Shown here in pieces: positions 6,049 to 64,000 of a stretch of DNA of 64,000 bases (position 1 is the stretch's first letter; each line of letters opens with the position of its first letter). A model generated the notes under the pieces. It did not search any database and was not told the origin of the DNA. It saw only the letters and a list, made by a program, of their open reading frames with translations. Source of the DNA: Methanosarcina sp. MTP4 (GTDB taxonomy: Archaea; Halobacteriota; Methanosarcinia; Methanosarcinales; Methanosarcinaceae); contig NZ_CP009505.1 in assembly GCF_000970045.1 (NCBI RefSeq), positions 3,620,808 through 3,684,807 of the forward strand, written 5' to 3'. Both the position numbers and the translations under genes were made by a program.

Positions 6049-6572
6049 ATTCAGCTGGAAACCAGCCTATTTCAGGCAGAAATATTCATTAAGGGGTAGG
6101 GAATCAAGTACAGGGGTTTCAAAGGCCAAAAAACACAGAAACTCTTCAAACTCTCCAGACTCTCCAAGCTCCTCCGAAACACTCGAAAAGTTCCGGATCA
6201 GGCCTGAAAGAAGGTAAGCTTTTAGTTGCCATTTTTAACTTGATAGTAAGTTGGGAGTATCAGCCGATAGTATCAGTTATATATGTGTAGCTATATTTGT
6301 GTAGCTTAACCTTGTTAGCATGACCGGTCCTCGCTGGATATCCGGACCGCCAATCCGAAAAATTCCGGGAAAAAGAGGTACCATCACAATATTCAAATTT
6401 ATCAATTAAAGCTTCCCAAAAGATCTTCCCAGGATCCGAAAGCCACATACGTAATTTAAATATAACACATAATTGAGATCAAATTTAAATCAAATACGTG
6501 AGTTAAAACCGAACTTCCGGCTGCAGGACACAGCCGCAATTAATTCGCCTGACCGTGAAAGACCGGCGTGGG
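6049..6572. other. Intergenic region upstream of the translation operon
   Basis: About 520 bases without a convincing gene. A CGGTCC/GGACCG inverted repeat lies near 6332-6350. The short open frame on the minus strand (6260-6448) has no ribosome-binding site and unconvincing composition. Confidence 0.4.
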
Positions 6573-49501: not shown

Positions 49502-51346
49502 TTGAATCCACCACTTCGAATTACCCGTGAAACTGAATTTTATCAGGGCTTCATCCGCTTCAAGATGTCTATTACTAATGAATCGCCTTCAATAATAGCA
49601 GACGTCATCCTCGACTTCTATTTTGAAGAAGCCCTGCTTCGAATCGACCGACATGAACCGGACTTTCAGCTGAAGAATGACAAGATTTTTCTGGGAAACA
49701 TCCACAGTGGGGAATCCAAGTCCGTTGCTGTCTATTTTGACCCCCTTATGTGTTCAAGGGGCACCGAGATCAATTGCCAGGTTACGTACAGGGATGCAGG
49801 CGGAAGGCTTGGTTCGGCATTCATGGAGCCTAAGGTAGTCAGTGTTGTCTGCCCGATCCTGTACACCGATTCCGACATTAACGTAGGCAGGCTCAAGGAA
49901 TTCATCGAAGTGCTTCCGAGCAGGGACAGCAAGGTATATAATATCCAGAATGGCTTCGACATCTCCAGCCTCGTGCACATCGCAAGGGAAGTTGTCGAGA
50001 AGCACGATGTCAGGCATATTCGCACCTTCCGCATGAAGGACGGGAAAGAGTGTGAAATCTGGTATTACGGGAAAACCAAAGTTCATCAGGAAAACCTTGT
50101 AATAAAAATCTCTCTCAGATTCGAAAAGCAAAGCTTAGAACTCTTTGTCACAACTGAAAGGGCTGAAACCCTTACCGGTTTTTTGGCTGAAGTTGGGCGC
50201 AACCTGAAAAATAGCCTTGAAACCAGAGCAACTGGCAGGGGCAACGTTACCAATCTTACTATAAAGGATTCCATTATCCAGCGGAGCAACCTTCTGGACC
50301 ACTGTGATATGGACGGAAGGTGTTCAACGAACATTATTGTCGAGGACAGTGTGATCCAGCATTCCAGCATCTCGTCTGGAAGAGCGGGGAGAGCTCCTCC
50401 AGAGATGAAAACGGGAATTAGAATCGATGTTGGCGAGTCTGAAACTTTCCGCAAGCAGCAGGAAGAACTGAACCATTTGAGGAAAGAGATTGAAGAGCTT
50501 CAGAGACATAAGGAAAACGAAGATCGCTTGCGTCAGGAAAGAGAGCATCAGGAAAAGCAGAAAGAAGAAAAGGAAAAGTTAAGGCAGGAGCTTGAAAGGT
50601 TAATGAAACAGAAGGAGGAAGAAGCAGAAAAGCTCCGGAAACAAAGAGAAGCCAGGAAGTTAGAGGCTCCGAAGACCCTGACCTGCCATGGTATTGAGTT
50701 TGTGCATATTCCTGTCGGGGAGTTTATGATGGGTTCAAATGAATATGATACCGGAAATCCAATTCATAAAGTAAAGATTGGGATATCTTTCTACCTTGGC
50801 AAATACCCGGTTACCCAGAAACAGTGGAAAGCTGTAATGGGCAGTAATCCTTCACATTTCAAAGGTGATGATCTACCCGTTGAAAAAGTATCATGGTATG
50901 ATGTTCAGGAATTCATTGAAAAGCTCAACGGAATGGAAAGCACAAACAAGTATCGTCTGCCATCTGAAGTTGAATGGGAATATGCTTGTCGTGCCGGGAC
51001 AAAAACAGGTTATTACTTTGGAGATAGCGAATCGAAACTTGGGGATTACGCATGGTATCGGGATAATTCAAATAAGAAGACTCATTCAGTTGGCCACAAG
51101 AAGCCCAATCCCTGGGATCTTTATGATATGCATGGAAATGTGTGGGAATGGTGTCAGGGAAGGGGGCATGGTAATTATGATAGTGCACCATTTGATGGAA
51201 GTGCTAGGGGAAATATATCTGCCTGGGTAGTGAGGGGGGGCAGCTGGTTTGACAACGCCGATAGCTGCCGATCGGCAGACTGCAGCAGGGTTCTCCCCGA
51301 CTGTTGCAGCTTCGACATTGGCTTCCGTCTTCTGAGAGAATTGTAA
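49502..51346 (+). CDS. FGE-sulfatase (SUMF1)-fold protein with archaeal N-terminal domain and coiled coil
   Basis: Up to 614 aa. The only upstream start is a TTG at 49502; the first ATG is at 49565, so the N-terminus may be truncated. Residues 1-240 form an archaeal domain (VYFDPLMCSRGTEINCQVTY, IWYYGKTKVHQENLVIKISL). Residues about 310-390 are a Glu/Lys/Gln coiled coil. Residues about 395-614 are an FGE-sulfatase domain (GIEFVHIPVGEFMMGSNEYD, YPVTQKQWKAVMGSNPSHFK, YRLPSEVEWEYACRAG, MHGNVWEWCQ, RGGSW, GFRLLREL). The catalytic Cys pair of true formylglycine-generating enzymes is not evident. The last 35 residues look like a diversified C-type-lectin surface. Confidence 0.82.
   Translation: MNPPLRITRETEFYQGFIRFKMSITNESPSIIADVILDFYFEEALLRIDRHEPDFQLKNDKIFLGNIHSGESKSVAVYFDPLMCSRGTEINCQVTYRDAGGRLGSAFMEPKVVSVVCPILYTDSDINVGRLKEFIEVLPSRDSKVYNIQNGFDISSLVHIAREVVEKHDVRHIRTFRMKDGKECEIWYYGKTKVHQENLVIKISLRFEKQSLELFVTTERAETLTGFLAEVGRNLKNSLETRATGRGNVTNLTIKDSIIQRSNLLDHCDMDGRCSTNIIVEDSVIQHSSISSGRAGRAPPEMKTGIRIDVGESETFRKQQEELNHLRKEIEELQRHKENEDRLRQEREHQEKQKEEKEKLRQELERLMKQKEEEAEKLRKQREARKLEAPKTLTCHGIEFVHIPVGEFMMGSNEYDTGNPIHKVKIGISFYLGKYPVTQKQWKAVMGSNPSHFKGDDLPVEKVSWYDVQEFIEKLNGMESTNKYRLPSEVEWEYACRAGTKTGYYFGDSESKLGDYAWYRDNSNKKTHSVGHKKPNPWDLYDMHGNVWEWCQGRGHGNYDSAPFDGSARGNISAWVVRGGSWFDNADSCRSADCSRVLPDCCSFDIGFRLLREL
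51236..51335 (+). other. Candidate diversity-generating-retroelement variable region
   Basis: Between the conserved RGGSW and GFRLL codons, about twelve positions where this fold usually has Asn are instead Phe, Asp, Asn, Ser, Asp, Ser, Val, Leu, Cys, Ser, Phe and Asp. Every one of these codons (TTT, GAC, AAC, AGC, GAC, AGC, GTT, CTC, TGT, AGC, TTC, GAC) ends in a pyrimidine, as expected if AAY codons of a template were randomised at adenines. No reverse transcriptase or template repeat is in the window. Confidence 0.4.
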
Positions 51347-51892
51347 TCACTTTCTACTTATCACTTTACACCGCAAGTTGGAATAAACTCCGGTGAAGTC
51401 CGAAGACCCGAAGCGTACTTCAGCCGCCGGGACTGAGGTGCTGAGCCAGTGTATTTTAAATTTTTGATTTATTATTCCAAAACGAGATCAAATGAGTGTT
51501 TTAAGGATAGCGATGGGAAGATACAGCGCCACTCCCATAAAAAAGAAGAAAAAACAGTAAAATCTAAAATTTCCAGCTATTCGCTTTTCCTTTCTAGGAG
51601 CCAAGAAATTTTTCGCTGCAGTTCCGCCGCCCCGACTAGTATAGCTCAAGAAGAGCATATATAAATATATATAACATCGTAGGTAATTTTCTTAGTTCGC
51701 ATTTATTGCTATTTTGTTCCATGCTTTAGTTTACAGTTGTTACCAGTTGTTCGCAGCAAATCCCCAAATACATCAATTTGTTCTCAATTGTTCACGTTTA
51801 TTCGAGGACATTCGCACACATTATCATTTATTACCAAAAGTTATTTGCCACCTCAGTCAATATATTATTCGAAAGATTCCATCGGTGATTTT
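51347..51892. other. Intergenic region after the FGE-fold gene
   Basis: A G+C-rich stretch with short inverted repeats (GAAGT/ACTTC, AGTCC/GGACT) at about 51393-51437, then A/T-rich sequence with a TATA-like ATATATAAATATATATAA at 51656. Frames here are not convincing genes. Confidence 0.4.
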
Positions 51893-52390
51893 ATGCCAGG
51901 ACAAAAACCAAATCCGGAAAATGAAATCGAAATCAGGCCGGTCTACTGTTTGACCTGCGGACGTGTTTATTTAAGTAGAGCACAGCGGCCTGTGTGCTCT
52001 AAATGCAGATCCAGGAAGGTTGTTGAGTATTCGAAAATGGGAGATAAGTCCGAGCTCCACAGCCTCCGTGTGGTCGTGGGGGAGGTCTGTGAGGCCCTGA
52101 AATCGTTTGAAACTGATCAGAAAATAATATCCGAACAGCAAAATGAATTATATGTTAACCAAAGGGCGCTTCAGGAAAGTTTCCAATCAAACACACAAGT
52201 ACAAAGTAAAATCGTAGAAGTCCTCCGCAGACATGAGCTTATTCCTTCATCGAAAACCAGCAGAAGAGCAACGGCATCAAACCCTGATCCCGTGCCCAGG
52301 TCAGAAAAGAGAAAACATGGCAAGGAGAATGCTTCCGGCTCTCAGGGTTCAGGAAATCTTTTGGGAAAACTAAATCTGATAAAGGGCTAA
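51893..52390 (+). CDS. Zinc-ribbon protein with coiled coil
   Basis: 165 aa from the ATG at 51893 (MPGQKPNPENEIEIRPVYCL), with GGTGAT upstream; the open frame further back is not gene-like. One zinc ribbon (CLTCGRVYLSRAQRPVCSKC) then a helical region (residues 50-120) and a basic disordered tail (SRRATASNPDPVPRSEKRKH). Possibly nucleic-acid-binding. Convergent with the 52397 gene. Confidence 0.65.
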   Translation: MPGQKPNPENEIEIRPVYCLTCGRVYLSRAQRPVCSKCRSRKVVEYSKMGDKSELHSLRVVVGEVCEALKSFETDQKIISEQQNELYVNQRALQESFQSNTQVQSKIVEVLRRHELIPSSKTSRRATASNPDPVPRSEKRKHGKENASGSQGSGNLLGKLNLIKG

Positions 52391-54764: not shown

Positions 54765-54914
54765 GAGGATGTGCTGGCGGCGGTTGTGTAACTGGCGGAC
54801 TGGAGAAATCAGTGCGTTTTTTTGGATTGCTTTTCGGGTACCGGAGTTCTCACCGGCCGAAGAGCGAAGCGAGGCGGACGGCTTTTTCAGAAAAATTAGA
54901 ATGAGGATGCATGT

Positions 54915-57323
54915 GTTCCAATCCTTGTTTTAGTGGATTTTGCTCATGGACAACGCTCGCCACATGTCCGCGCCCTACCTCGATATTTTGTTTCAATCCT
55001 TGTTTTAGTGGATTTTGCTCACGGACGGTCATCATCTGCGGGAGTCTCGGTTTGACTAGATCGTGTTTCAATCCTTGTTTTAGTGGATTTTGCTCACGGA
55101 CGATACCGGGCAGGAGGCATTGCGAGGGTGCTTTAAGTTTCAATCCTTGTTTTAGTGGATTTTGCCCACGGACGGCGCGGAGAATGGAATTTTCGATTAT
55201 GTTTTTTCAGGTTTCAATCCTTGTTTTAGTGGATTTTGCTCACGGACTGCTTTATTAGGGTTGAAACTGCAAATTTATCTGGTTTCAATCCTTGTTTTAG
55301 TGGATTTTGCTCACGGACTGTAGGTGTAAATATTCCAAAAACTGAAAGATTATAGTTTCAATCCTTGTTTTAGTGGATTTTGCTCACGGACCCTCCACAG
55401 ATACCCCGGCGTTTTTCATGGTCTCATGTTTCAATCCTTGTTTTAGTGGATTTTGCTCACGGACATTTAGAGAAAACCGCATAAGCGGGTTTCGACTTTT
55501 GTTTCAATCCTTGTTTTAGTGGATTTTGCTCACGGACGTATTGGAAACTATATGTACACTACAGCCAAAAGGTTTCAATCCTTGTTTTAGTGGATTTTGC
55601 TCACGGACTTTTACCATCCTGATTTCATGACCTATCATGCAAATAGTTTCAATCCTTGTTTTAGTGGATTTTGCTCACGGACGCAGCCACGGCGGCGGTT
55701 TTGGTTGGAATCAGGTATACGTTTCAATCCTTGTTTTAGTGGATTTTGCTCACGGACCCTTTCCAATATTGGAAAGTGCCGGAAGATGTATCGGTTTCAA
55801 TCCTTGTTTTAGTGGATTTTGCTCACGGACCTAGACGGCGGGAACGTTCCCATATCTACAGCATTGTTTCAATCCTTGTTTTAGTGGATTTTGCTCACGG
55901 ACCAGGTCCAGTTACGGCAGCCCATAGCCCAAAACATAGTTTCAATCCTTGTTTTAGTGGATTTTGCTCACGGACACAAGCTCAGCGCCACCAGCCAGTG
56001 GAACAGTTCAGGTTTCAATCCTTGTTTTAGTGGATTTTGCTCACGGACCCGAGTTTACCCCGCCCGCGTCAAAACACATATCAGAGTTTCAATCCTTGTT
56101 TTAGTGGATTTTGCTCACGGACCTAATGAATCACTCTCACCCCCGGACCGGTGATATAAGTTTCAATCCTTGTTTTAGTGGATTTTGCTCACGGACTTTA
56201 GAAACTGGGATAAAGAGCTACTTGAAGACTTTGTTTCAATCCTTGTTTTAGTGGATTTTGCTCACGGACTCAGCGAAATCTTTACACCAATGTAATTGAA
56301 TTTCTGTTTCAATCCTTGTTTTAGTGGATTTTGCTCACGGACACAAAAATGTAAGACACGAATAGAAGAGAACGTACAAGTTTCAATCCTTGTTTTAGTG
56401 GATTTTGCTCACGGACGCTATATGTGTTGTGACAATTCGGGGCTCATTTGAGTTTCAATCCTTGTTTTAGTGGATTTTGCTCACGGACAAAGCCATGTGA
56501 TACGACAGGGGAGAGAGAGAATAAGGTTTCAATCCTTGTTTTAGTGGATTTTGCTCACGGACATAGCCCTTGGAGCATGTATGGCTATGGTCCTCATGTT
56601 TCAATCCTTGTTTTAGTGGATTTTGCTCACGGACGGCTGAGAGAAATACAAATAGCTGGAGCATTACGATGTTTCAATCCTTGTTTTAGTGGATTTTGCT
56701 CACGGACACCATGACCAGCGACTTCATCGATAACGGAAACGAGGTTTCAATCCTTGTTTTAGTGGATTTTGCTCACGGACGGGACTTGAAGCAGGCGACC
56801 CGGACAAAGGTGGAAGGGTTTCAATCCTTGTTTTAGTGGATTTTGCTCACGGACAAAGAATATAAAAACCCTAGCCAAATACAGGCTCAGATATCAGCTG
56901 TATTAGGCGAAGGCAGACATTTACTAGTAAAGTATAAGGGGAAAAACAGAGGCATAGGGAAAACTACCAAGTATTTGACGATCGACGAAGCGTTTCAATC
57001 CTTGTTTTAGTGGATTTTGCTCACGGACTTGTTTCTATTACCTCGATCAATCGACCAAGTTTTTGTTTCAATCCTTGTTTTAGTGGATTTTGCTCACGGA
57101 CCCCTTCATCATCTATGAGCCTGCTTCCATCATCTTGTTTCAATCCTTGTTTTAGTGGATTTTGCTCACGGACCCCGGTAATTCGTGCCTACATCAGCTT
57201 TTGGCGTTGTGGTTTCAATCCTTGTTTTAGTGGATTTTGCTCACGGACTTTATCAAAGTGACTGGTCCACTTGAAGCAGGCCCTGAGTTTCAATCCTTGT
57301 TTTAGTGGATTTTGCTCACGGAC
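54915..57323 (-). CRISPR. CRISPR array, trailer-side part (32 repeats)
   Basis: 37-nt repeat, + strand reading GTTTCAATCC...GCTCACGGAC. Spacers are mostly 34-38 nt. The first repeat (54915-54951) is degenerate (GTTCC at the start, CATGG near the end) and the fourth has one change (TGCCCACGG), as expected for the old, leader-distal end. In transcript orientation (minus strand) the repeat ends in ATTGAAAC, the typical 8-nt crRNA handle of type I-B and III systems. No cas gene in the window. Confidence 0.97.
56855..56991. other. 137-nt oversized CRISPR spacer
   Basis: Between intact repeats at 56818 and 56992 lies 137 nt instead of about 36. It has no repeat remnant and is open throughout in one frame (KEYKNPSQIQAQISAVLGEG, then LLVKYKGKNRGIGKTTKYLT), like captured coding sequence. 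Confidence 0.85.
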
Positions 57324-57452
57324 CTCCTGAATGGCTTTTCAGGTTCCAGCTTGCGCTGTCAACGGCAGTTTACTTTTCCCCACTTCGGACGGTTTAAAAT
57401 TCCCCACCTTTTGATATAAAGTTTGCTTAATTTTTCAATAACTTCTGTAGAA

Positions 57453-58226
57453 TTAGGTGTATGGAATTACCGTTTTTATGCCCTGTCTTTTCCTCTCCTT
57501 AAGCCTGTAGCTTTCTCCTTTGATGTTGATTGTTGTGCAGTGATGGAGTATACGATCAAGTACAGCCGCCGCTATTACATGGTCTTGGAATATTTCACCC
57601 CATTCTCCATAAGACTTGTTTGAGGTAAAGATAGTTGAGCTTTTCTCATAACGTTTTGATATAAGCTGAAATAAACAATGTGCTCCTTCTTCATCAAAAG
57701 GAAGATAGCCCATTTCATCGATTATCAGTAGTTTGTATTTCGTAAAGTCCCTCATCTTCTTTTCAAATACACCTTCCCGATTTGCTTTTTTTAATCTCTC
57801 TATAAGGTTGCCTGCATTGACAAAGTAAACAGAAAAACCTGCTTTCACGGCTTCCATTCCAAGAGCGACTGCAAGATGGGATTTCCCAACTCCAGGAGGA
57901 CCGAGTAAAACAATATTTTCAGTGTTGTGTACAAATCTCAAAGTAGAAAGGTCTTTAATCACAGTTTTATCAACGGACGGTTGAAACTCGAAATCAAATT
58001 CCTCAAGAGTCTTTTTTACAGGGAATACTGCACTTTTCATCCTTCTGTTAATTGCCGCAGCATCCCTGTGTTTCCTTTCCTGTTCAAGCAGATGATCAAG
58101 AACTTCCATTGTTGTCTTGCTGTCTTTTGCAGCGAGTTCCAGATAGTTGTCCAGGATCTCTTCAATGGTATCCAGTTTCAGACACTGAAGGTTATTGTGA
58201 AGCCTTTCGTATGTGAAATTGTTCAT
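57453..58226 (-). CDS. istB: IstB helper ATPase of the IS21 element
   Basis: 257 aa, normal length. AAA+ ATPase that activates the IstA transposase and selects target DNA. Walker A VLLGPPGVGKSHLAVALG, Walker B KLLIIDEMGYLPFDEEGA, sensor STIFTSNKSYGEW, C-terminal LDRILHHCTTINIKGESYRL. Its ATG overlaps the istA stop by 4 nt, the usual coupling. Confidence 0.95.
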   Translation of the reverse strand: MNNFTYERLHNNLQCLKLDTIEEILDNYLELAAKDSKTTMEVLDHLLEQERKHRDAAAINRRMKSAVFPVKKTLEEFDFEFQPSVDKTVIKDLSTLRFVHNTENIVLLGPPGVGKSHLAVALGMEAVKAGFSVYFVNAGNLIERLKKANREGVFEKKMRDFTKYKLLIIDEMGYLPFDEEGAHCLFQLISKRYEKSSTIFTSNKSYGEWGEIFQDHVIAAAVLDRILHHCTTINIKGESYRLKERKRQGIKTVIPYT

Positions 58227-59467
58227 ACTGAACCTCCTTGACTAAAAGCTTCATAGATCTCAAGAGATCTCTTCTCCACTTCTGGGCCTGAAAACTTCAT
58301 TGGAGGCTTTGAAGTATTTCTGCAAGCAGAATTCTCTTTTAGAATCTCACTCAGGAGTCCCTGAAAGTGTTCCTTTCTCCTGATCACACTACCGTATTCA
58401 TGTAGGATCTCATGTTCACAAATGCACTCGTTATCGACACAAACCTCGAACTTTCCCTCTGATATATGAAGCTCTGCAGTTCTTCCTGCAAACTTGTAAG
58501 GAACAGAATATTTATTTCCAAGATAAGAAATATAACAGTCTCTTGAAATCTTTCTGGTCTCTTCCTTAACAACTCTGTATGCGGGAACCTGATCCAGAGA
58601 GGCCAAGTTCTCCTCCTTGAAGCGTTCAAGAGGGATTTCATGAGTTGTTCCATGGACACTTGAATTCACTCTCTTTAACCATCCCATAACCTGAACATTT
58701 AGGCTTTCAAGGGAACTGAACTCTCTTCCAAGGAAGAAATCCCTCTTGACGTATCCAACAGTGCTTTCAATTTTCCCTTTCGTCTGAGGTCTGTATGGCC
58801 TGCACAAGCGAGGAATAAATCTGTAATACTTGAAGAAATCCTCAAACTGAGGGTTCCACTCTGAATCAGATGATTTCAATGCTCTCCTGATTACAACCTG
58901 TTTCATGTTGTCATACAGGATCTCCTGTGTCCATCCACCAAAGTACTGAAACGCATTCAAATGACACTGAATAAGTGTAGGTGTGTCGATACTCAGTGTA
59001 AATTCTACATATCTCATTCTGGAGTATCCAAGAATCATGTTAAAACAGAAAAGCTTCTTGAGTTTTCCATCGAATTCAACTGTTCCTAATTCTCCCCAAT
59101 CAACCTGGGATTGGACACCAGCTTTTGTCTCATAGCGGAGTACCGCATCTACTCCCTGTTTAGGTCTGATCTGTCTTATAAAATCCTTAACGATGGTCTC
59201 CCCACCTTCATAGCCCATTTCCTTGATTTCGCGAAAGAGGCGAGCTGCGGTATAGGGGGATTCACTAAGCTTTTTGAGTATGTGAGGTTTGAAGGAATCG
59301 AGTTTGCTCGGTCTTGTCGGACGTTTTTGGGGTTCAAGAGGTGTCTTCTTGTTGAGATATTTCCTCACAGTTTTCCGATCATGTCCTGTTTTTCTGGCGA
59401 TTTCACTTATGTTCAAGCCTCGTGAATTATAATCTCTTATCACTAACCAATCCTCCATTTTCAGCAT
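58223..59467 (-). CDS. istA: IstA transposase of the IS21 element
   Basis: 414 aa from the ATG at 59467 (MLKMEDWLVIRDYNSRGLNI); an ATG three codons later is also possible. N-terminal helix-turn-helix (NISEIARKTGHDRKTVRKYL), DDE catalytic core with VQSQVDWGELG (Asp), ILYDNMKQVV (Asp) and TKGKIESTVGYVKRDF (Glu), and a C-terminal beta-barrel (YSVPYKFAGRTAELHISEGK). Appears intact, so the element may still be active. Confidence 0.95.
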   Translation of the reverse strand: MLKMEDWLVIRDYNSRGLNISEIARKTGHDRKTVRKYLNKKTPLEPQKRPTRPSKLDSFKPHILKKLSESPYTAARLFREIKEMGYEGGETIVKDFIRQIRPKQGVDAVLRYETKAGVQSQVDWGELGTVEFDGKLKKLFCFNMILGYSRMRYVEFTLSIDTPTLIQCHLNAFQYFGGWTQEILYDNMKQVVIRRALKSSDSEWNPQFEDFFKYYRFIPRLCRPYRPQTKGKIESTVGYVKRDFFLGREFSSLESLNVQVMGWLKRVNSSVHGTTHEIPLERFKEENLASLDQVPAYRVVKEETRKISRDCYISYLGNKYSVPYKFAGRTAELHISEGKFEVCVDNECICEHEILHEYGSVIRRKEHFQGLLSEILKENSACRNTSKPPMKFSGPEVEKRSLEIYEAFSQGGSV

Positions 59468-59563
59468 GATCCACAATCCTCGAACTTTTCTCAAGGATTG
59501 TGAATTGGGGAATTTTAAACCGCCGAAAATGGGGAATTCTTAACCGCCGTTGACAGCGCCGAA

Positions 59564-62500
59564 GTTTCAATCCTTGTTTTAGTGGATTTTGCTCACGGAC
59601 TGTTGTCTTCTGTCCTGCTGAGAGCCCCGCCATGAGTTTCAATCCTTGTTTTAGTGGATTTTGCTCACGGACCGTTGCTGAATATTTCGGTTTTTTCGAT
59701 GAGTTGAGGTTTCAATCCTTGTTTTAGTGGATTTTGCTCACGGACTTCTGAACAAAATCTGCGAGCGTTTCCACGATGAATGTTTCAATCCTTGTTTTAG
59801 TGGATTTTGCTCACGGACCGGGATAACAGATATATTAAGCATGGAGTGGAAAAAGGTTTCAATCCTTGTTTTAGTGGATTTTGCTCACGGACGAACTCCA
59901 TCAGGTCATCAGATGCGCCGAAAACTAGTTTCAATCCTTGTTTTAGTGGATTTTGCTCACGGACTCCCCAAAGGTGTGACGCCCGGAAGCTTTGCAACAG
60001 AGTTTCAATCCTTGTTTTAGTGGATTTTGCTCACGGACCTGAAATACATCCAGCAGAAAATACAATAATTAATAGTTTCAATCCTTGTTTTAGTGGATTT
60101 TGCTCACGGACCAGGACAAAAGTTTCCAAATGCTGCAATTCTCTTTTGTTTCAATCCTTGTTTTAGTGGATTTTGCTCACGGACCACTTCCATATCTTTT
60201 AAAATGGTCACATAATATGTTTCAATCCTTGTTTTAGTGGATTTTGCTCACGGACATATCAGGAATCAATAACCGGCTTCGGTGACTACAGTTTCAATCC
60301 TTGTTTTAGTGGATTTTGCTCACGGACAATAAGGAAAATTGAACAGATCAAAGAGCACACAGAGTGTTTCAATCCTTGTTTTAGTGGATTTTGCTCACGG
60401 ACATACCCACATTGTCCCGAAAAAGACCGCAATCGAGTTTCAATCCTTGTTTTAGTGGATTTTGCTCACGGACCTTCCCACTCATAACAAACAGCAAACA
60501 AGACCAAAGTTTCAATCCTTGTTTTAGTGGATTTTGCTCACGGACATTTACCCCCGTTATATTTCGGTTGCCGTTTTAGGTAGTTTCAATCCTTGTTTTA
60601 GTGGATTTTGCTCACGGACAAGAAAGCCGGGCCGTAAGTAGAATACATTGAATCGGTTTCAATCCTTGTTTTAGTGGATTTTGCTCACGGACCCTGCTCA
60701 TAGGTCTAACTCCCAATATAGCAGATTGTTTCAATCCTTGTTTTAGTGGATTTTGCTCACGGACCCCTGGGACCTGGTTCCGGACATCAGGGAGCGCCGG
60801 TGTTTCAATCCTTGTTTTAGTGGATTTTGCTCACGGACAATACATCCTAGAATCCCTTTCCCCTACGATATTGCTGTTTCAATCCTTGTTTTAGTGGATT
60901 TTGCTCACGGACAATACAAAACATTGAAATTGCAATGTCTCGGTATTTGTTTCAATCCTTGTTTTAGTGGATTTTGCTCACGGACCTTCCACAACAAATT
61001 CAACCCCGCCAACCTCCGAAAAGTTTCAATCCTTGTTTTAGTGGATTTTGCTCACGGACGGCAGTTCACACGCTCAGAAAAACCAAAGCCACTATGTTTC
61101 AATCCTTGTTTTAGTGGATTTTGCTCACGGACAAGCTCAATAAAGCCAACTGCTTTATATTACAATCAGTTTCAATCCTTGTTTTAGTGGATTTTGCTCA
61201 CGGACACCACCAACACAGACAGCAGCCAACGCCGCCGCAAAACGTTTCAATCCTTGTTTTAGTGGATTTTGCTCACGGACAGCCACCTGGCAAACATACT
61301 GGACCCAGACTTCGATAGTTTCAATCCTTGTTTTAGTGGATTTTGCTCACGGACACGAAAAACGAGAAAAAAACACGTATATTATTAGGGTTTCAATCCT
61401 TGTTTTAGTGGATTTTGCTCACGGACTGCCTACACAGGCACAGCAGATGCCACATTAGGAGTGTTTCAATCCTTGTTTTAGTGGATTTTGCTCACGGACA
61501 CATACCATTTAAAAATTTATCAAACTCTTCAACGGTGTTTCAATCCTTGTTTTAGTGGATTTTGCTCACGGACGTCGCTGGATTTGTTGTATGCATTGTA
61601 TGAATAGGTTTCAATCCTTGTTTTAGTGGATTTTGCTCACGGACATCTAACGCCGGGTCAAATACCGGCATGACGATAAGTTTCAATCCTTGTTTTAGTG
61701 GATTTTGCTCACGGACACTGGGGAACTCTCAGAGTTCACATCCGAAGATTCGTTTCAATCCTTGTTTTAGTGGATTTTGCTCACGGACACTTCGTGATCT
61801 GCCCGGACATCGTGCAGGGTGGAAGTTTCAATCCTTGTTTTAGTGGATTTTGCTCACGGACTTAATGTTTTGCATTTCACCATAATTGCATAAGTAGTTT
61901 CAATCCTTGTTTTAGTGGATTTTGCTCACGGACGCTTTGCTTCTGTGAATACCAGGACCCGGAGATAGGGTTTCAATCCTTGTTTTAGTGGATTTTGCTC
62001 ACGGACGTGCCATTAATGAGAGGGTTGCTTTTTGACTGCCTGGTTTCAATCCTTGTTTTAGTGGATTTTGCTCACGGACAGTTGCTAATTTGCCTGCTGA
62101 AAGGCGGACAACTGCGTTTCAATCCTTGTTTTAGTGGATTTTGCTCACGGACTCCAGATCGAGAACGTTAACCTGTTTTTTCAGGGTGTTTCAATCCTTG
62201 TTTTAGTGGATTTTGCTCACGGACAATTCGACCAAATTAATCAGGATTCTGTCTTTGATCGTGTTTCAATCCTTGTTTTAGTGGATTTTGCTCACGGACA
62301 TAATCCTTCGATTTTAGTATACGACAGCAGGACATTTGTTTCAATCCTTGTTTTAGTGGATTTTGCTCACGGACATACATATTTTTAGTCCGTCCTCCGT
62401 AGTTGTTAATTTGTTTCAATCCTTGTTTTAGTGGATTTTGCTCACGGACTTATGTTCAGCGACCAGGGCAGCCTGTAGCTTACAGTTTCAATCCTTGTTT

Positions 62501-64000
62501 TAGTGGATTTTGCTCACGGACAAGCCGTTTTGGGGTTGAGCGAATGTAATGCTGTGGGTTTCAATCCTTGTTTTAGTGGATTTTGCTCACGGACCCAGGA
62601 CTCCGGAGCACATAGCCAGGACCCCGGCAAGTTTCAATCCTTGTTTTAGTGGATTTTGCTCACGGACAGGATGTCGAAACGTATACCGATTCAACTCTTG
62701 ATGTTTCAATCCTTGTTTTAGTGGATTTTGCTCACGGACCAGACGTCCCCGGCAGTTTCCCCGGGATCGCTCAGGCTAGTTTCAATCCTTGTTTTAGTGG
62801 ATTTTGCTCACGGACTTGTATCTTCTCTCTACCGGTTCTGTCTCTCTTCGTTTCAATCCTTGTTTTAGTGGATTTTGCTCACGGACGAATCATTCACGGG
62901 CATAACAAAAACCGACAGGAGTTTCAATCCTTGTTTTAGTGGATTTTGCTCACGGACTGCAGGCATCCCGTGGGGAAAAGTAGCCGTGATAAAGTTTCAA
63001 TCCTTGTTTTAGTGGATTTTGCTCACGGACGTAACAAGACAAAACTACGGAGTCGCAAACATGGCGTTTCAATCCTTGTTTTAGTGGATTTTGCTCACGG
63101 ACAACGTCGAAAACTGAAATATCAAGACCACAAAAAAAGTTTCAATCCTTGTTTTAGTGGATTTTGCTCACGGACTCTAACTCCGATTATTTTTATGCCT
63201 CTATCATCCCGGTTTCAATCCTTGTTTTAGTGGATTTTGCTCACGGACCAGGATAGCTACGGCTCAACTCCCTGAGAACTATGGGTTTCAATCCTTGTTT
63301 TAGTGGATTTTGCTCACGGACGATTCATAATCAGTGTACTCTTTGAAATTAGCAAGGTTTCAATCCTTGTTTTAGTGGATTTTGCTCACGGACTGAAGCC
63401 GCAATCCTTGAAACCATGACGAAGTACACGAGGTTTCAATCCTTGTTTTAGTGGATTTTGCTCACGGACATAGAAGTCGAAGGCTCAGACGAACTCCGAA
63501 GACAGGGTTTCAATCCTTGTTTTAGTGGATTTTGCTCACGGACGTAAGGGGCTTTTGTGGATTTGCCCGAGCCCATAAGTTTCAATCCTTGTTTTAGTGG
63601 ATTTTGCTCACGGACGATTATGAAGGGCTTCTCAGAAGTCCATGTCCACCAGTTTCAATCCTTGTTTTAGTGGATTTTGCTCACGGACGAATCAAGATAG
63701 TTCCACCCATCCGGATTAATTTCAGTTTCAATCCTTGTTTTAGTGGATTTTGCTCACGGACCCGGTTTGCAAGTCCATACTACGGTCAGGCATTGCGGGT
63801 TTCAATCCTTGTTTTAGTGGATTTTGCTCACGGACAGATCAAGAGGGCTGCCAGGTGTTGAGCGTCGGATGTTTCAATCCTTGTTTTAGTGGATTTTGCT
63901 CACGGACACCTGCTCTCATTGCAGTGATGAACAGCAAAGGACATGGTTTCAATCCTTGTTTTAGTGGATTTTGCTCACGGACCGTTTGGGAGATCGGACG
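59564..64000 (-). CRISPR. CRISPR array, leader-side part (61 repeats, continues past the edge)
   Basis: Same 37-nt repeat as the left part, 61 copies from 59564 to 63982 with 71-76-bp periodicity, followed by an incomplete spacer at the window end. All repeats in this part look identical, as expected closer to the leader. Leader and cas genes should lie to the right. Confidence 0.97.

Follow-up and report, generated by a model that had tools for sequence, protein, structure and literature searches.

In Methanosarcina sp. MTP4, the last ~102 bp of a gene for an FGE-fold protein were, with high probability, rewritten by a diversity-generating retroelement (DGR) whose cassettes have since decayed, so that the reverse transcriptase (RT) is apparently lost and one template repeat (TR) and one recent target are left. 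The gene lies in a stretch of 64,000 nucleotides (the window) within a genome that is a single contig of 4,211,468 bp and 99.91% complete. We infer that a DGR mechanism acted at this locus in the past.

The variable gene and its codon signature

The gene, its lectin-fold domain and its variable region (VR) have the following positions in the window.

49502..51346, plus strand: variable-protein gene, 614 aa (ORF call)
50696..51337, plus strand: FGE-sulfatase / C-type lectin fold domain (PF03781), Pfam match, closest solved structure TvpA 2Y3C
51233..51334, plus strand, ~102 bp: DGR-type VR, NNY at 13/13 template Asn/Asp codons, an older copy relative to the template repeat TR2
51318..51336, plus strand: 19-nt TTGGCTTCCGTCTTCTGAG, same as the 3' end of TR2, candidate initiation-of-mutagenic-homing sequence

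The 614-aa protein consists of an N-terminal beta-rich domain, a linker, a coiled coil (residues ~316-386) and the FGE/C-type-lectin domain (residues 399-612, E 3.6e-44 for PF03781); the beta-rich and coiled-coil layout was read from the secondary structure of a low-confidence predicted model (mean pLDDT 51, VR <50). The top solved-structure match is Treponema denticola TvpA (2Y3C, 8e-35), itself a DGR variable protein. The tail of the protein reads RGGSWFDNADSCRSADCSRVLPDCCSFDIGFRLLREL, with RGGSW followed by FDNADSCRSADCSRVLPDCCSFDI and then by GFRLLREL. The VR sits at the extreme C-terminus of the C-type lectin fold and ends three codons before the stop. By eye, one cysteine of the FGE catalytic pair is apparently swapped for a variable codon. 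A long CRISPR array (window ~54900-63900, repeat GTTTCAATCCTTGTTTTAGTGGATTTTGCTCACGGAC, ~73-bp period) starts 3.5 kb 3' of the gene.

Template codons for the NNY count were defined from three TRs. The third base is C or T in all 13 window-VR codons that align with a template Asn or Asp, whereas across the gene body C/T makes up 52% of third bases (P = 2e-4 for the window gene alone), and the same 13/13 count was found again in most paralogues and orthologues. An initial annotation made from the letters of the window had described just this, an FGE-fold protein tail with the NNY signature set between conventional scaffold codons, and we found the scaffold codons conserved as described. It had placed the VR at 51236-51335; the VR is there, but its register is 51233-51334 and the start was 3 bp off. 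It had also pointed to odd TGC codons that adenine mutation seemed not to explain. The second of these (in ...PDCCS...) would follow from A-to-T in AGC, which gives TGC: the Methanolobus template (TR90) has AGC at this site, and the window's own template may have carried it too. The first TGC is left without explanation.

A template repeat and its recently rewritten target

The initial annotation had proposed a genome search for a template repeat and for a DGR-type RT. Searching with the window tail, we found FGE paralogues and a free-standing copy (C1:403058-403160) that lies outside any FGE gene and translates as NSSNRVIRGGSWNNNARNCRSANRNRNDPDNRDNNVGFRLL. This is the template repeat sought.

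C1:403037-403165: template repeat TR2, non-coding, AAY codons, RGGSWNNNARNCRSANRNRNDPDNRDNNVGFRLL

Paralogues with changes confined to template adenines had likewise been anticipated, and one was found beside TR2. The adjoining caspase-FGE gene (L034:3973-5721) is changed at 19/26 TR2 adenines and at 0/76 other positions (p 3e-15), and the 26 adenines read A7 C6 G7 T6 in its VR, that is, they are evenly randomised. To judge by this comparison, these changes are the signature of adenine-directed mutagenic copying from TR2. A TR-VR pair of its own is also present in the sister species G001, changed at 15/27 adenines vs 0/75 other positions. In both genomes each VR fits its own TR at all non-A sites and shows 8 differences to the other's TR; at least one of the two lineages therefore underwent homing after the species had separated, and most likely both did.

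A second TR-like copy, TR1 (C1:400328-400456), was rejected as a template, being truncated and degenerate. The TR2 cassette is flanked by 64-nt direct repeats (L034:5853-5916 and 6487-6550, 92% identical, 634 bp apart), which suggests mobility or recombination; a similar repeat lies 3' of the TR in G001.

The window VR compared with TR2 and with its orthologue

Compared with TR2, the window VR differs at 16/26 adenines and at 14/76 non-adenine positions; adenine changes are thus enriched, not exclusive. Because of the 14/76 non-adenine differences the window VR is no direct product of TR2, and its direct template is absent from the genome. Relative to TR2 we regard it as an older copy.

An orthologue of the window gene is present in the sister species G002 (C28:28580-30430, equivalent to L217:5581-7467; 79% identity overall, 81% in the body), and the gene downstream (window 51737-52390) is common to both loci. 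Between the two orthologues, 21/34 template-adenine sites differ vs a fraction of ~0.155 at FGE-body codon positions 1-2 (p 1.6e-8), while codon positions 1-2 of the scaffold differ at 3/36. In two control FGE orthologue sets with 80-87% body identity, the tails differ at 0-2/34 template-adenine sites. Hypervariation of the window orthologue mainly at template-adenine positions, as expected under the initial reading, is therefore present here and lacking in the controls.

Other FGE loci carry related tails. The VR of a paralogue (L037:8882-10258) and its orthologues (L097:5348, L218:3000, L227:2324) is almost identical in four species and is still NNY at 12-13 of 13 codons; it looks like a former VR that has since been fixed. 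G002 also has an FGE-domain pseudogene with four in-frame TAA stops (C61:92515-93375).

A complete cassette in Methanolobus and relics of this layout in the window's genus

Methanolobus psychrotolerans YSF-03 (G044), a member of the same family, has a complete cassette.

L090:13569-11356, minus strand: VR gene, protein 40% identical to the window's
L090:11210-10704, minus strand: HRDC-domain protein (PF00570)
L090:10744-10367, minus strand: Avd protein (PF22296)
L090:10370-9360, minus strand: RT with motifs IGNLTSQ and YMDD
L090 from about 9350, minus strand: TR
L090:9229-9077, minus strand: structured RNA

Its TR and VR differ at 14/33 adenines and at 0/69 other positions. The same gene order was found on a contig of an uncultured archaeon (L193). 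Archaeal DGR RTs (L165-L168, L193) share 60-68% identity with RTs encoded on contigs of bacterial MAGs that have the same RNA fold 3' of the TR, and L165 and L166 are near-identical though in different phyla; this likeness may reflect either cross-domain transfer or mis-binned contigs.

In front of several relic RNAs stands MLKIFTVRYSEKTENFPDQQMSDFLADK or a near variant, which is the N-terminus of the HRDC accessory protein; in these relics a deletion has fused it to the 3' end of the RNA. HRDC relics stand behind FGE genes in four genomes (G000-G003), and those seen in the window's genome (G000) are truncated. Of the HRDC gene that follows the KAP-FGE gene, 130 codons are still left in G001 (68% identity). 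The window orthologue in G002 is followed by no more than the initial 15 codons of HRDC, a match that is only suggestive, its E value alone being 0.12, and a further HRDC-RNA relic lies within the same interval. No cassette relic was detected in the corresponding interval of the window.

51347..51736, plus strand: interval 3' of the window gene; its G002 counterpart holds cassette relics (HRDC N-terminus, structured 3' RNA)

The 3' domain of the template RNA

Approximately 170 nt 3' of the TR can be aligned across RT-bearing genomes, RT-less genomes and bacteria. RNAalifold placed 36 pairs in this 3' domain of the template RNA (TR-RNA), 23 of them with compensatory changes. Pairing reached 95.3% of filled cells; shuffles gave 78.2%, with 0/500 as high, and sliding gave no more than 51%, a control that leans in the structure's favour because the structure was derived from the same alignment; changes on both sides of a pair are, in our judgement, the stronger evidence. 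The TR-RNA model has matches in 12/112 family genomes, mostly relics, and the window's genome holds four full or partial copies (C1:403158, 3211028, 3212948, 4053519). No Rfam family scored above threshold for the TR-RNA. The result is a covariation-supported model for a template RNA 3' domain without a prior Rfam match.

Reverse transcriptases

An RVT_1 search of the single-contig genome returned two RTs only. Both score above the group II intron maturase cut-off (TIGR04416; 334 and 357 bits vs 300), whereas the DGR RT scores 142, and both carry a group II-type QGG..SP motif instead of the IGNLTSQ (SQ motif) of the DGR RT. One of them, a 438-aa RT (C1:3720250; L035:3864-5180), was ruled out as a DGR RT by this score and motif; it lies 48 kb from the variable gene, between Cas6-like and Cas1-like genes (named by eye). 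The DGR-type RT that the initial annotation had sought is absent from the complete genome by RVT_1, TIGR04416, motif and DGR-RT profile. This profile was built including the two group II RTs and found nothing else in the genome, and therefore shows only the absence of others.

A close DGR RT was found in 1/112 family genomes, that of Methanolobus psychrotolerans only, and a DGR RT in 3/238 genomes of the class (the same genome and two others). None was detected in the sister species G001 (97% draft). Viral contigs gave one distant RT (35%) and 0 TR-RNA pattern matches, and no DGR RT together with the TR-RNA; plasmids and phages gave weak bacterial or cyanophage matches only.

These results divide what the initial annotation had concluded. 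Its variable protein of a remote DGR does have a DGR variable region, and the genome does hold a template at another locus. A remote working DGR is not claimable, because TR2 is no direct parent and the complete genome has no DGR RT, nor is there support for a DGR that is complete and works at present in this genome. The initial annotation had also said what would speak against it: the missing RT is indeed among our findings, but the template is present and the changes in the sister gene are adenine-confined.

Origin of the variable region

On the reading that we prefer, reverse transcription would have inserted random bases wherever the template RNA has an adenine, and the resulting cDNA would have replaced the 3' end of an FGE gene. 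Full cassettes of the lineage, in the order VR gene - HRDC - Avd - RT - TR - structured 3' RNA, probably once stood behind several of these FGE genes, as the relics suggest, and internal deletions would have removed Avd, RT and mostly the TR in the sequenced genome. One intact TR with its RNA domain would have survived, with the caspase-FGE gene as its very recently rewritten target and the window gene retaining an older variant. The RT was presumably lost rather than supplied in trans, and we favour recent independent loss.

Two explanations would do without diversification in this lineage. One has SUMF1-like paralogues diverging in the ordinary way, or under positive selection where they contact the ligand, with no retroelement involved; it could draw on the fact that the variable codons sit on the binding face of the FGE fold, and non-diversified paralogues also differ from TR2 more at adenines (L039_3425: 17/26 vs 26/76). 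We give it almost no credence: TR-VR pairs with zero non-adenine changes occur in three genomes, the A/C/G/T outcome at adenines is flat, and purines are absent from the 13/13 NNY third positions. Ordinary divergence also fails to explain the pattern between the window gene and its orthologue, because control FGE sets at similar body divergence stay conserved at the same sites. It is very improbable, too, that a DGR-bearing organism donated the entire gene, VR included, and that no diversification of the VR ever took place here. The absence of a matching template and the rarity of DGR RTs in the class (3/238) would fit such a transfer, but the sister-species orthologue has 81% body identity and a shared downstream gene, and it is the VR, not the body, that is randomised between the two.

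The question of present activity is weighed differently. A system still active through an RT in trans (from a plasmid, virus or other strain), or through a group II intron RT that uses the conserved TR-RNA, strikes us as unlikely, yet it has to be reckoned with: TR2 and its structured RNA are intact, and two sister species hold pristine TR-VR pairs from homing after the split, neither with a detected DGR RT. Against it, the two RTs of the genome are group II maturases by score, with the QGG..SP and not the SQ motif, the viral contigs have no DGR RT carrying this RNA, and several other cassettes are plainly decayed. It is doubtful that the RT-less template cassettes of Methanosarcinaceae, with their intact and covarying TR-RNA, form a standing archive which a mobile or foreign RT wakes from time to time; if they did, diversification would be episodic and no resident RT would be required. 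Loss of the RT, as we prefer it, means that template, RNA and scrambled targets outlive the enzyme, and loss vs trans-supply is directly testable.

Comparison with known systems

What precedes the diversified FGE domains in this genome is a caspase (PF00656), a KAP P-loop NTPase (PF07693) or, in the window protein, the beta-rich domain and coiled coil. Caspase- and NTPase-type FGE fusions have been proposed as sensors of bacterial conflict systems (Kaur et al. 2020, PMC7159879; Dore et al. 2024, PMC10907252), and by analogy the diversified FGE proteins are probably ligand sensors that carry effector or scaffold domains. In the open-access literature searched we found no description of a DGR in Methanosarcina, Methanolobus or other Methanosarcinaceae. 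As a rule, DGRs of archaea have come from DPANN and virus metagenomes. Our findings now add methanogens, from a family with cultured members, in which putative sensor proteins linked to caspase and NTPase domains show DGR diversification.

With DGRs of the Bordetella BPP-1 type (Roux et al. 2021, PMC8144416) the system shares a C-terminal C-type-lectin VR, a non-coding AAY TR and adenine-only TR-to-VR changes, and the Methanolobus relative shares RT and Avd as well. Unlike in BPP-1-type DGRs, there is no RT in the genome, and the TR lies ~0.94 Mb from the window VR (circular chromosome assumed) and is not its parent. Treponema denticola TvpA (2Y3C) is likewise an FGE-type C-lectin variable protein, whereas the window protein is archaeal and has a beta-domain and coiled coil before the lectin domain. 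Incomplete and trans-acting DGR loci are already known from Thiohalocapsa (Dore et al. 2024, PMC10907252), where strain PB-PSB1 resembles our genome in its several FGE targets fused to NTPase/protease conflict domains, its incomplete loci and its inferred trans action; PB-PSB1, however, retains RTs, whereas none was found here, and the host here is archaeal. Finally, the FGS-domain conflict systems (PMC7159879) have the same arrangement of a caspase or P-loop NTPase N-terminal to a hypervariable FGS domain; their DGR link was described for cyanobacterial and gammaproteobacterial systems, and here it is found in an archaeon.
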